Under the pieces are notes generated by a model. The model had not been told where the DNA came from, ran no database searches, and saw only the letters and a program-made list of their open reading frames with translations. Positions 44,101 through 58,900 of a stretch of 64,000 bases of DNA are shown here, piece by piece. Numbering within the stretch: position 1 is the stretch's first letter; the number at the start of each line of letters is the position of its first letter. Origin of the DNA: Crambe crambe (lineage: Eukaryota > Porifera > Demospongiae > Poecilosclerida > Crambeidae). Position numbers and translations under genes: made by a program. The DNA is taken from the NCBI GenBank assembly GCA_963924555.1, contig OZ004583.1, positions 2,699,501 to 2,763,500 of the forward strand, read 5' to 3'.

Positions 44101-47100
44101 TACGTACGCCTGGGGCATTTTGGAGTGTAGACCTAGATATATATATATATTTAAAATTTCAATGAGTCATGACCTGAGAGTCAGCTCACTCGCTTCGCTC
44201 GCTCGCTGCAACTAGGGCAATGTTCAACATTCAGTTGACAGCGAGCGAGCAAGCAAGCAAGTATTCTTCAACGATTTTCATTTGCTGTTGAGTATCTGTA
44301 GCAATGTGCAGCATTTGACAGTGAGCAATTAAAGTAGCTGATAGGCTTCAGTGCTTGATATTGCTAAGAGTCATGTAAGTGGTGGCAGGCAGCTGCATAC
44401 ATACTTACCTCAAAGCACTTAGATAAGCCTAGTGCCTACAAGCCGCTTAGATAAGCCTCTTGTGCCTGCTGCCCAAAAGGCTGTAGAAATGTTGAGCTGA
44501 TAGTTCATTTGTGCTTTGCTGTTGTGTTATGTAGCTAAGTGGCAGGCAGCTGCATGCATAGAAAGCTAAGTACTTACCACAAAGCACTTGGATATGTCTA
44601 GTGCCTACAATCCACTTAGATAAGCCTAGCCCTACTATCCACCATGCTATATACAAAGCGATGTAGAAATCAATCAAGCAATTGCAACTGGAGCATGCGC
44701 ATAAGTGCACGCGCAGGGGCGCTACTATTGCACGACACGTACGTACGTACGTACGCCTGGGGCATTTTGGAGTGTAGACCTAGATATATATATATATTTA
44801 AAATTTCAATGAGTCATGACCTGAGAGTCAGCTCACTCGCTTCGCTCGCTCGCTGCAATTATATATCTAGGTCTACACTCCAAAATGCCTCAGGCGTACG
44901 TATGGTACGTGTCCCGAAATAGTAGCGCTGTGCGCGTGCATAATGCGCATGCTCCAATTAATCAAGCTAGATTGTTTTCTACATGCAGCCTTTTGTCATA
45001 GGGCTCTAGGCTTATCTAAGTAGATTGTAGGCGCTTGTTATCTAAGTGCTTGTGGTACGTATTTACAGCTTTCTATGTATGGAGCTTCCCGGTTGGAACC
45101 ACAACTTACATGACTCTTGTCTCTGACAGCAAGCACTGGAGCCTATCAGGTACTCACTTGCTCACTGTCAAATGCTGCACATAATTATAGTAGTAGTTGT
45201 AGAGGCTCTAGCCTGGTACTTTGTTACATATAAACTCAACAGCAACTAAAGAGTTGTAGCACTAACTTGCTTGCTCACTGGCTATCAAAATTAATGTATC
45301 GAAGTGAATTGTAGGCGCTTGGCTTATCTAAGTGCTTGTGGTAAGTATTTACAGCTTTTGATGCATGGAGATTTCTGGTTGGAACCACCACTTACATGAC
45401 TCTTGTCTCTGACGCAATATAAAGCACTGGAGCCTATCATGCTCACTTGCTCACTGTCTAAACTAAACAGCAAAATCTTCTAAATTAAAGAGTTGTAGCA
45501 CTAAAGAATGCTTGCTCGCTCGCTGCCAACTGAATGTTGAACATTGCCCTAGTAATTCATACATAGCTAGTTAGCTACATCACTAACTAATTTCATTCAG
45601 TGGTATGATATGATGACACTATAGCCATGGGGTTGAGCACAGTCATATTATTGGGCATGCATATACAGTAAGTGATTATAGGTCCTCAATTTCCTACGTA
45701 TATGTACATGCAGTGCATGGCTGATATTACACCACTGAGAACTGAGGTCGGGGGACCCATTAAATTTTCTGTAGGCTGTAGGCCCATTAGACTATATCAG
45801 CTTGAAGCTGTGCATTAACTGAGTGTTTTGATACATAATCTTGTAGCTAGAGGGGGAGGGTCAATTAACTCATGCAATAGCATACATGAATGACTATAAT
45901 TATCCCTATGTCAATGAGCTTGAGTCACACTTCATAGACTAACTGGTGGGATGTGGAGACTTTGTGAGACATTAGTTAGCTATGGTACAAATCACGCATG
46001 CATATTGTTATGTTCAGTTGAGTTCAGTGTAGCTATATCATGCCTGTTATACATCTGATTTGTGTTCTCTGTTCTTGTAATAAAGTTAAAACCCTCCAAT
46101 GCCAGAAGATCCGGGTTGTTACACTGTGTTTAAGTCACTTCTTCCCAAAGTTAGTAGCCTCAGGACTGGAATTTGGTGTGGAGATTATTTCCTTAAGCTC
46201 TCACAAGCTAGCTCCTTAAACTATAACTTAGATAATTATGTGATTAGCTACATGACCATGATGCATAATAGTTATATCAAATGTACATAGCTATATAGTA
46301 TTACTAGCGATGTGAATTAGCTATTGCACCAAAATTTACATTTATGATGTGGTTGACTGAATAGGAAGTTAATGACTAATTATTCAGGCCAGAACTGTTA
46401 TCATGTATAATTACTTATGCAGGAAATAACTCTTGACACTTCTACATGTAAACACCACATGATAATAGCTAGCTAGGAAATAAGAAAAATCATTTAGCAT
46501 GAACTATTATTAATATGCTAACTATGTGAACTGACAACATTCCTTGAAGTTGTAAGACTTGTAAATCTATATGTATTACTACAGAGATGGCATTTGTGAT
46601 GTGCATATGAGTCACCCAGATTCTCGCAATAATGAGTGCATGCATGTGCAATAAATAGCGATTTAGCTTTGATAGCTGCCCCATCAAGACTCTATATACG
46701 TAGCCATCTAATTTTCATTCATGCAGGTTCAAATTATATACCGGATAGCTTGGAGACTTGATTTATACCCATCATGTGATCCAAGTGTTCCAACACTCCA
46801 CACTGGAGAAGGAGCACTCACATGTGTAGTTGGTTGCAGTGGCACTCTTGGCTCTCTGACTTTCTTCTGTACAGATCGTAATGATGCCGAACAATCGGCA
46901 TCAGGACAGAATATGTTCAGCTACACATTTGCTCCTAATACCAACAACTTTGAAGCTGTGTAAGATTATAAGTCCATCCTGTAATGAGACAGACCACCTC
47001 TTAGCTATTAGCGAAAAGATCACCATGGCCCAATATTTCAATCTCCAGCTCCCATCTCCTTAGTAAAGGCCAGTTGTATAAAGGCCAGTGCCAGTTATTC

Positions 47101-55988: not shown

Positions 55989-58900
55989 ATGGATTGCTTG
56001 CAGATTCTGGTTCATTTATTGCTTCCAATTTATGTCATAGAAGCAGATCACTTCAGGGGAGCCATAGTACAGTGGCGACCAGTTAATCCAGACAATTTCA
56101 ATGGACAGGTATAATGGTACTCTTATAGGCCTATGAGCTATATTGTAGGTATAGGTACATGTAAAAGTGCTGCAGCCATTATGTAGAAGGAGGCCGAGCA
56201 TAATGTATGTGTGCAACAAAGTAGCTAACTGTGATGACCTGAGGGCACGTGTCTCTTATACACAAAGCTTTATCCTCAACAAGAAGACGGCACAGAAAAG
56301 CAATAAAGTATACAGTAACAGGAAATGAGTGAAACCACGTGGTTATTTAATGCATGCATGAATAACAATTATGATTAATAGTTAGCTATATCACTAAGTG
56401 GTATGGTGATACTAGCCATGATTAGAAAAGGGGGTGGGGAAGGGTTGAACACAGTATTGGACGTGCATATAGCTACAGTTTTATGAGTGCTCAATTTCCT
56501 ACGTATAATTATGATGCATGGCTAATATTACACCACTGAAATGCAGCACTGAGAACTGAGGTCAGGGGAGCTTGAAGCTGTGTATTAACTGAGTATTTTT
56601 ATACGTACATAATCTTGTAGCTAGAGGGGGAGGGTCAATTAACTCAACTGTCATTATTAGCATACATGATTGGCTATAATTATCCCTATGTCAATGAGCT
56701 TGAGTCACACTTCATAGACTAACTGGTGGGATGTGGAGACTTTGTGAGACATTAGTTAGCTATGGTACAAATCACGCATGCATATTGTTATGTTCAGTTG
56801 AGTTCAGTGTAGCTATATCATGCCTGTTATACATCTGATTTGTGTTCTCTGTTCTTGTAATACAAGTTAAAACCCTCCAATGACAGAAAATCCTGGTCAG
56901 GACTGAAATTTGGTGTGGAGATTATTTCCACTAGCTACAATTATAACTTAGATAATTATTATGTGATTGGCTACATGACCATGATGCATAATAGTTTATG
57001 TGAATTTACTTCAGCTAACACATTTCTATGACTGCAAGAAATTAGCTATTGCACCAAAATGTACATTTATGATGTGATTGACTGAATAGGAAGTTAATGA
57101 CTAATTATTCAGACCAAAACTGTTATCATGTATAATTACTTATGCAGGAAATAACTCTTGACACTTCTACATGTAAACACCACATGATAATAGCTAGCTA
57201 GGAAATAGCAATTCTAAGAAAATCATTTAGCATGAACTATTATTAATATGCTAACTATGTGAATTGACAATATTCAGTGCACATTCCTTGAAATTACTGT
57301 AGTTGTAAGATTTGTAGATCTATATGTATTACTACAGAGATGGCATTCGTGATGGCATATGTCACCCAGATTCTTGCACGTGCATGCATGTGCAATAAAT
57401 AGCGATTTAGCTTTGATAGCTGCCCCATCAAGACTCTATAAATAGCCATCTAATTTTCATTCATGCAGGTTCAAATTCTATACCGCATAGGTTGGAACCT
57501 TGCTGGATACACATCATGTAATCCAAATGTTCCAACATTCCACCCTGGAGAAGGAGCACTCTCATGTGTAGTTGGTTGCAGTGGCAATCTTAGCTCTCTG
57601 ACTTTCTTCTGTACAGATCGTAATGATGCCGAACAATTGGCGTCAGGACAGAATATGTTCAGCTACACATTTGCTCCTAATACCAACAACTTTGAAGCTG
57701 TGTAAGATTATAAGTCCGTCTTGTAATGAGACAGACTACCTCTTAGCTATATATTAGCGAAAAGATCACCATGGCCCAATATTTCAATCTCCAGCTCCCA
57801 CTTCCTTTATAAAGGCTAGTTGTACAAAGGCCAGTTGTTCATGGCCATATGTAACTAGATGGTCATAGTTGCTAAACTGTGTGATGTATCATTGGACAGA
57901 TTCTCCAGTTGCTGTTGGATATCTGCAGTAGGTGGTGGTAGCTGGGATATAAGAGTGAAAGGAGTTCTCACTCCAAGACCTGATGGTAGGATAAACTCTT
58001 CACCAGTCACTTCAGCCATGCCCGTAGTTCGATTGCAGCAAGGTTGTGGTGGTGTCATAAGGATACCAGGTAAATTCTTATAACCAAAGTATAATTTTAA
58101 TTTCCAGCAACTAGTTCTAGCTAGCAACAGTTTAAATTTCAGGTCAGAGTCATTCAAAGTGTGTGTGTGTGTGTGTGTGTGTGTGTGTGGTGTGTGTGTG
58201 TGTGTGGTGTGTGTGTGTGTGTGTGTGGGTGGGGGGGGGGGGGGGGGGGGGGCTGAAAATGTTGAGATGTGTGAATAAACTCAACCATGGTATTGATTCT
58301 ACCCAAAACTGATTTTTTTAACAGTGCAGGATCCAGATGGAGACAATGTGCGTTGCCGTTTGGCTGTTGAAAATGAGTGTGGCGGTATTTGTACTGGATT
58401 TCCAGGCTCTACACTTAATGGAGTGAGTATAATTATTGCTAGCTAGCTACTATGCAATTATAATTCTCATTGTTGAACATAACAATGAAAGAATAAAAAT
58501 TCCAAACTGTGAAGTGGACAAATCGGACAAACCTTTTATCTACTCAATGGATCATCTTTCATATATTCACTCTATACAAAATACACTGTAGCCTCCAAAA
58601 GTATGAAAAGGACAAAAGGACGGGTCCCAAGTATGTCCATTATTTGGTGGTCCCACTGTAGGTACGATATTAAGATGCACTCTTTCACATGCAGTATCTA
58701 CCTATATATTTCATAGGCGGAGGAACCAGGGGGGCCAGGGGGCCATGGCCCCCCCCCCCCAGATTTTTAGACCTCCCCCCAGATTTCATTCAAGGAGACA
58801 ATTATACATTATGATTGCATTTGCAAAATGAAACATTTTCAGCTCTATTTTGACTCTTGTTTTTTAATTAAATCACAACTATTGTCGGGTACGCATGGTG

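Follow-up and report, generated by a model that had tools for sequence, protein, structure and literature searches.

The 64,000-nucleotide (nt) stretch of the genome of the demosponge Crambe crambe analysed here (hereafter the window; assembly GCA_963924555.1, contig OZ004583.1, positions 2,699,501 to 2,763,500) contains two related genes, D and E, the second exons of which differ predominantly in codons that change the encoded residue. We suggest that D and E are members of a sponge surface receptor family with multiple copies, in which selection acts on positions of an N-terminal module, and which would constitute a recognition repertoire with putatively differing specificities (probability approximately 0.52). 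A few positions of this module, in two gene clusters on different chromosomes, show more residue changes than expected under neutrality, and the remaining ectodomain tested, namely exons 4-10 in the cluster on contig C5 and exons 4-6 in that on contig C20, is mostly conserved.

Gene D opens with a signal-peptide-like exon, continues through exons 2-10 and 19 EGF exons, and closes with a hydrophobic last exon bearing a short tail, the signal peptide and membrane stretch having been assigned by eye. A search of the genome (143,139,886 bases in 119 contigs) identified at least 17 matches to the exon 2 protein and at least 20 to that of exon 5, the latter being located on C5 (2.74-2.93 and 3.29-3.32 Mb), which also harbors the window, C20 (2.79-2.96 Mb) and C1 (7.15-7.21 Mb). 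The nearest relatives of D and E are the C5 copies F, H and I, in each of which exons 1-10 were all found. A pseudogene and a fragment sit beside these working-looking copies in the cluster: copy G comprises exon 2 only, with its frame broken by a 2-nt insertion, and copy J is a damaged fragment of exons 7-10. Genes D and E themselves are located ~10.7 kb apart on a single contig, which rules out that they represent a haplotype duplication. No account of this family was recognised among the titles and abstract openings covered by the literature search.

The variable exon 2 is 233 nt long in both D (46727-46959; phase 0 to 2) and E (57469-57701), with AG/GT borders. Recounting the codons of the two copies gave numbers identical to those of the initial annotation, with 14 residue-changing and two silent differences across 77 codons, 13 of the 14 falling within codons 1-44. 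At the nucleotide level, the difference between the two copies amounts to 12.1% for codons 1-44 and to 2.0% for codons 45-77. The non-synonymous (dN) and synonymous (dS) distances calculated by the Nei-Gojobori method are 0.097 and 0.037 for the complete exon (ratio 2.63), and 0.174 and 0.029 for codons 1-44. The earlier count for exon 5 (three changing and six silent codons) was likewise matched. That for exon 1 (three changing and four silent codons) applies if the first exon of D is the copy at 41114-41233, but not if the nearer copy at 42124-42243 is taken, where two codons differ from E, one of them being an in-frame TGA. The flanking introns had been described as well conserved, which proved incorrect, as the D and E sequences show 8.6% divergence across the final ~730 nt of intron 1, and 10.8% divergence across intron 2. 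The contrast between exons in this pair is genuine. Exon 2 differs in its proportion of changing and silent changes from exons 4-10 (13 changing, 20 silent changes; Fisher p = 0.0009), and 15 changes occur at the 96.6 non-silent sites of codons 1-44 where 8.3 are expected at the intron rate (p = 0.023, for a segment picked post hoc). A dN/dS above 1 is, nevertheless, not demonstrated by the D/E pair alone. The exon 2 dN/dS values for the other nine pairs among D, E, F, H and I reach only 0.70-1.35, and as such D and E form the extreme pair.

Selection was further evaluated across copies using our own codon likelihood program (models M0, M1a and M2a with F3x4; without a PAML cross-check), with site tests on the five C5 copies D, E, F, H and I, and on seven C20 copies on another chromosome. 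Copy G and fragment J were left out of the codon tests, while the C5 copies at 2.89, 2.91, 2.93 and 3.29-3.32 Mb and those on C1 were left out of the site tests as too divergent or incomplete by informal judgement. Intron-split codons and stop codons were omitted. Three exon 2 codons of copy I that are unmatched in the other copies were treated as gaps in the site tests and omitted from pair counts, as were two codons in exon 1. The C20 exon borders are tblastn spans rather than splice sites, exon 2 of copies L and Q is without its last codons, and copy N is a composite of exons 1-2 from L028 and exons 3-6 from L027.

The one-ratio dN/dS is 1.03 for exons 1-3 versus 0.28 for exons 4-10 in the C5 cluster, and 1.06 for exons 2-3 versus 0.34 for exons 4-6 in the C20 cluster. 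In both clusters, a site class with dN/dS above 1 (M2a) is favoured over the nearly neutral model (M1a). The pattern first observed in one pair is upheld across more copies for C5 exon 2 alone (likelihood-ratio test statistic, LRT: 10.97; p = 0.004), and is stronger for C5 exons 1-3 (LRT: 26.2), C20 exon 2 (LRT: 23.0) and C20 exons 2-3 (LRT: 44.5). Removal of gap columns leaves LRT values of 17.4 for C5 exons 2-3 and 41.2 for C20 exons 2-3. For C5 exons 4-10, the LRT is 0.0, and is also 0 when multi-nucleotide changes are allowed. Among 12 simulations of the M1a null per cluster, generated with a separate tree per exon and analysed on one tree, the maximum LRT is 7.6 (C5) and 10.7 (C20). Relaxed constraint on its own, which is the hypothesis set against selection in the M1a versus M2a comparison, is rejected in that M2a is preferred. 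The earlier proposal that the first extracellular segment evolves under diversifying selection is thus supported with more copies and recurs in the second cluster on another chromosome, but its limitation to exon 2 does not hold, as selected sites are also present at the start of exon 3.

Comparison of all pairs within each cluster in windows of 15 codons places the highest dN of the C5 copies in the 5′ part of exon 2 (dN: 0.26-0.34; dS: 0.13-0.21). The corresponding part of exon 2 in C20 shows a dN of 0.27-0.28 with a dS of about 0.10, while at the exon 2/3 border of this cluster dN is 0.27-0.32 and dS 0.06-0.07. Selected positions in C5 include two ahead of the first conserved cysteine (Cys) of exon 2 (LYPSC in D, GYTSC in E and SYPTC in H), a stretch in which copy I carries three additional residues, as well as the residue preceding GEGAL, exon 2 codon 43 and the exon 3 dipeptide preceding a tryptophan (GG in D; CC in E, F and I; GD in H). 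In C20, the selected positions are found in the stretch ahead of the same Cys, in the GxGxL region, at the same exon 3 dipeptide and at two later exon 3 positions. Four of the five C5 sites in exons 2-3 are no more than two columns away from a C20 site in a joint alignment (p = 0.01 for random placement).

The exon 3 dipeptide forms a second variable spot, with exon 3 beginning YSSGGWISA in D (47174-47343; first bases matching copy H) and FSSCCWISA in E (57900-58069). In a survey of 17 copies (that of L019 being unreadable at this point, and those at 3.29-3.32 Mb not included), the dipeptide is Cys-Cys in eight (E, F, I, L, N, O, Q and L032) and without Cys in nine (D, H, K, M, P, L022, L023, L033 and L034). 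None of the 17 carries a single Cys, the pair being present all or none, and the Cys-Cys dipeptide may represent a vicinal disulfide. The SSCC codons differ between the C5 and C20 clusters, indicating that the shared SSCCW motif is not the result of recent transfer. On the same grounds, conversion between chromosomes is disfavoured as the source of this motif.

Several observations weigh against selection focused on the N-terminal module of a surface receptor. Exon 2 of D and E, taken alone, fits strict neutrality (at most two silent of 18 changes; p = 0.157). At the start of C5 exon 3, dN is only modestly raised (0.12), and dN exceeds dS elsewhere, with values of up to 0.16 at the C5 exon 8/9 border, 0.09 at the C5 exon 6 start and up to 0.19 at the C20 exon 5 start. 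The latter is the place of the one exon 5 codon which accounts for an LRT of 10.7 in C20 exons 4-6, a value that falls to 5.9 (p = 0.053) with multi-nucleotide changes allowed. Because of these other windows, the pattern must be regarded as concentrated in, rather than confined to, exons 2-3. Two of the C5 sites in exons 1-3 furthermore fall within the signal-peptide-like part. When double and triple changes are allowed, the LRT falls from 26.2 to 11.0 in C5 exons 1-3 (p = 0.004) and from 44.5 to 18.9 in C20 exons 2-3 (p = 8e-5), or to 8.1 (p = 0.018) and 17.9 (p = 1e-4) for exons 2-3 of C5 and C20, respectively, with gaps also removed. Codons with two or three base changes therefore supply part of the selection signal, and the test weakens but survives. 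In simulations of the multi-nucleotide null, the multi-nucleotide test reached maxima of 1.3 in C5 (observed: 11.0) and 9.1 in C20 (observed: 18.9), among the simulations that finished (7/16 for C5; 5/16 and 15/60 for C20; one tree per cluster), which may represent the easier data sets. One of five such C20 nulls did, in the standard test, attain an LRT of 20.1 (observed: 44.5). Multi-nucleotide mutation as the whole cause is rejected, given that modelling it removes only part of the signal. Conversion between copies breaks the single-tree assumption of the site tests. Finally, pattern search did not recover the hydrophobic last exon in E or I, and the AlphaFold2 model of a C1 relative (mean predicted local distance difference test score, pLDDT: 35.9), with mere hints of strands flanking the variable stretch, is unusable and as such lends no support to an exposed face.

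Sequence exchange between the copies is evident. On the intron 1 side, sites at which exactly two of D, E and F agree are divided into 48 shared by E and F, 12 by D and F, and seven by D and E, while from intron 3 onward the corresponding numbers are 22, 123 and 26. Copy F is therefore a mosaic of E and D (Fisher 1e-18 on the E=F and D=F classes), the reversal of the agreement classes between introns 1 and 3 indicating that it switches partner within exons 2-3. Copies D and H, furthermore, share a patch that covers the final 25 nt of intron 2 and the beginning of exon 3. These two copies are 23-54% divergent in introns 1, 3, 5, 6, 8 and 9 and 16.8% divergent in intron 4, whereas intron 2 and the 58 aligned bases of intron 7 show differences of only 8.2% and 1.7%, respectively. 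Intron 2 of H differs from that of E by 8.8% and from that of F by 12.1%. The low intron 2 divergence most likely stems from exchange in the neighbourhood of the variable exons, although constraint on intron 2 might account for it. Given that copies have exchanged sequence, D and E cannot be treated as a simple pair. Gene conversion had been raised in the initial annotation as an explanation that could replace selection. The exchange is real and spreads variants, yet it does not readily explain dN above dS. Donation by a divergent third copy as the sole source of the D/E differences is likewise disfavoured, as silent changes are sparse where residue changes are dense.

It may be argued that no positive selection has occurred, and that exon 2 is merely less constrained, with conversion tracts and multi-nucleotide mutations mimicking adaptation. 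The 12.1% difference between D and E in codons 1-44 is near the intron levels of 8.6 and 10.8%, F is a mosaic, D has patches in common with H, and the multi-nucleotide models reduce the signal. The M1a null against which M2a was compared, however, already contains a neutral class, and the signal outlasts the multi-nucleotide models in both clusters and tops all completed nulls (20 for C20 and seven for C5). A dS of 0.029 alongside a dN of 0.174 in codons 1-44 of D and E would hardly be expected from donation by a divergent copy, and across all C5 pairs dN (0.26-0.34) exceeds dS (0.13-0.21), though dS is not low. We consider an explanation free of positive selection to be distinctly improbable. 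A further alternative is that the copies are developmental or adhesive labels marking cell types within one animal, which diversified after duplication without conflict between organisms. The variation in EGF exon number (11 to about 22) is in keeping with this, as adhesion proteins of differing reach vary in the same manner, but the matching positions in two clusters and the exchange between copies suggest continuing rather than one-off divergence, and such labels appear very unlikely.

Where the proteins are instead involved in encounters between organisms, their partners may be other sponges, gametes or more varied ligands. An allorecognition role, in which the genes encode self/non-self receptors or ligands that govern the fusion of neighbouring sponges and the variable exon serves as a self label, would accord with the surface architecture, clustered copies and variable outermost exon, which are reminiscent of known invertebrate allorecognition loci. 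A sponge graft study argues for a polymorphic genetic system behind recognition, and reports that genes for aggregation factor-mediated adhesion were not significantly enriched (PMC5450542). Allorecognition nevertheless requires allelic polymorphism, while the divergence observed here is among copies in one genome. A repertoire accounts no less well for paralogues in two clusters, and we regard an allorecognition role as unlikely. Reproductive surface proteins also change fast, and a function in sperm-egg or sperm-choanocyte recognition could be envisaged on this basis. Many copies in two clusters would, however, be atypical of a single gamete receptor, and a gamete function has little probability.

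For the receptor repertoire favoured here, we envisage a protein standing on an EGF stalk of copy-specific length, where the number of EGF domains would set its reach, and in which the variable stretches may form one exposed binding face. By analogy, the hypervariable N-terminal positions would contact ligands. Duplication, conversion and selection could together maintain a diverse set of receptors, and, because the divergence is between copies of one genome, many external ligands, such as microbes, symbionts and foreign cells, would be more likely partners than one fixed partner. A more far-reaching proposal is that this is a novel multi-chromosome family with a putative binding module unlike those in Pfam, a fixed set of positions diversified through selection and exchange among copies, and an all-or-none vicinal Cys-Cys switch, which would provide the variable allo- or immune recognition system of a demosponge. 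We put this forward tentatively, as a combination that is unlikely to be correct in full. The genes responsible for self/non-self behaviour in sponges, and germline-encoded receptors for microbes in these animals, are poorly known. The named diversifying codons, together with a genome assembled to chromosome level and the deposited alternate haplotype of C. crambe (GCA_963924525.1; PMC12166358), render the recognition hypothesis directly testable. Should the interpretation in terms of selection be wrong, the family would still offer a clear example, within an early-branching animal, of localised change accompanied by conversion between copies.

All features of D and E described in the window are encoded on the forward strand. 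The intact exon 1 copy at 41114-41233, with a signal-peptide-like start by eye and a GT donor, is the candidate first exon of D. It is located 1 kb further upstream than the copy closest to D, that at 42124-42243 with the in-frame TGA. Additional loose copies of this exon occur in the cluster on the reverse strand, at 37457-37338 and at C5:2798269-2798150. Downstream of exons 2 and 3, gene D comprises exon 4 (47555-47652), the conserved exon 5 (48039-48301) and exons 6 (48445-48606), 7 (48864-48904), 8 (48968-49056), 9 (49408-49579) and 10 (49641-49718), followed by the run of 19 EGF exons (49872-54063), which were identified by pattern, not every splice border being checked individually. The last exon (54538-54709; borders by eye) contains a hydrophobic stretch, a putative membrane anchor as judged by eye, and a short tail whose final residues, VPLIEL, precede a stop codon. 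Gene E consists of an intact exon 1 (55989-56108), exons 2 and 3 as given above, and exons 4 (58325-58422), 5 (59015-59277), 6 (60417-60578), 7 (60841-60881), 8 (60941-61029), 9 (62324-62495) and 10 (62559-62636), with the first six of its EGF exons at 62778-63939 and further ones beyond the window.

By pattern, 19, 22, 12, 11 and 16 EGF exons were counted for D, E, F, H and I, respectively. The EGF exons of E fall into two blocks separated by 5.6 kb, and the EGF exons of I also form two blocks, and the counts for these two copies may therefore include a neighbouring unit. Blocks of EGF exons downstream of exon 10 are near-identical within and between D, E, F, H and I. The EGF-repeat identity of the stalk is unambiguous, with the first three EGF exons of D matching the Pfam families EGF_3 (e-value: 5.1e-37) and EGF_CA (e-value: 3e-33). 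The hydrophobic last exon, read by eye, is present in three of the five copies searched by pattern (D, F and H). Two copies of this exon are found downstream of F (L017, C5:2872667; L018, C5:2877165), the latter being split across two frames. No Pfam family above cut-off was detected in the N-terminal module (exons 1-6), and exons 1-10 of E and exons 1-5 of H likewise gave no Pfam match above cut-off, whether V-set, immunoglobulin (Ig)-like or other. A weak Big_5 (Ig-like) match to residues 366-473 of E (exons 8-10) lies below its cut-off. Searches of PDB sequences with one protein and with the alignment used for the structure model returned best matches at chance level only (e-values: 0.41 and 1.6). 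In the C1 copies L033 and L034, exons 2-6 are contained in a single long open frame (890 and 2194 amino acids). Their downstream architecture is different, Pfam detecting a single EGF-like stretch instead of a series of EGF domains, which suggests that the N-terminal module has been shuffled.

Within intron 8 of E, an insertion of ~0.9 kb (~61260-62190) that is missing from D is flanked by inverted GTTCAGCGCGCACCCCC-like ends and looks, by eye, like a terminal-inverted-repeat element. Intron 5 of E contains a GA microsatellite of ~200 nt (~59331-59543), with a short one at the same place in D. Elsewhere in the window, two direct repeats of 222 nt with 100% identity (7523-7744 and 18494-18715) enclose long open frames that appear gag-pol-like by eye (8611-12558, 1,315 amino acids; pieces in 14115-18482). 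The region 7523-18715 is probably a young long terminal repeat (LTR) element, perhaps with a second one nested inside. A 412 amino acid open frame of the NAD-dependent epimerase/3-beta-HSD type, as judged by eye, is located at 6159-7397.

The similarity of this family to known recognition systems is one of pattern, and membership of those families is not claimed. The Alr proteins of Hydractinia are clustered transmembrane surface proteins in which the outer domain is the most variable, and the sponge genes likewise encode clustered putative surface proteins with a variable outer part. The outer domains of Alr are, however, Ig-like, whereas the N-terminal module of the sponge proteins is without a Pfam match and is followed by a long EGF stalk. 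The SpTransformer (Sp185/333) genes of sea urchins have been described as clustered and rapidly diversified immune genes. Compared by description only, these proteins are without EGF stalks, unlike those of the sponge family. Sponge aggregation factors, which are extracellular and resemble proteoglycans, contain Calx-beta or Wreath-type and other domains. Pfam scans of exons 1-10 of E, and of the first three EGF exons and last exon of D, gave no Calx-beta or Wreath-type domain. Aggregation factors are described as multi-gene, polymorphic and linked to recognition (PMC8066720). Individual-specific receptor expression is reported for Halichondria panicea (PMC8242945). A 2025 review states that the candidate recognition proteins lack conservation across sponges, cnidarians and ascidians (PMC12065747). 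In the ascidian Botryllus, published descriptions assign one Ig and two EGF domains to fuhc-sec (PMC3549757, PMC12065747), and a sushi domain and three transmembrane exons to fester (PMC3549757). No sushi match was obtained in the scanned parts of the sponge family, and D has one hydrophobic last exon. The codons of fester with high dN/dS are reported to be concentrated in particular exons (PMC3549757). The sponge family resembles the fuhc and fester systems in this focusing of selection on particular extracellular exons, which was measured on alleles in Botryllus and on gene copies in C. crambe.

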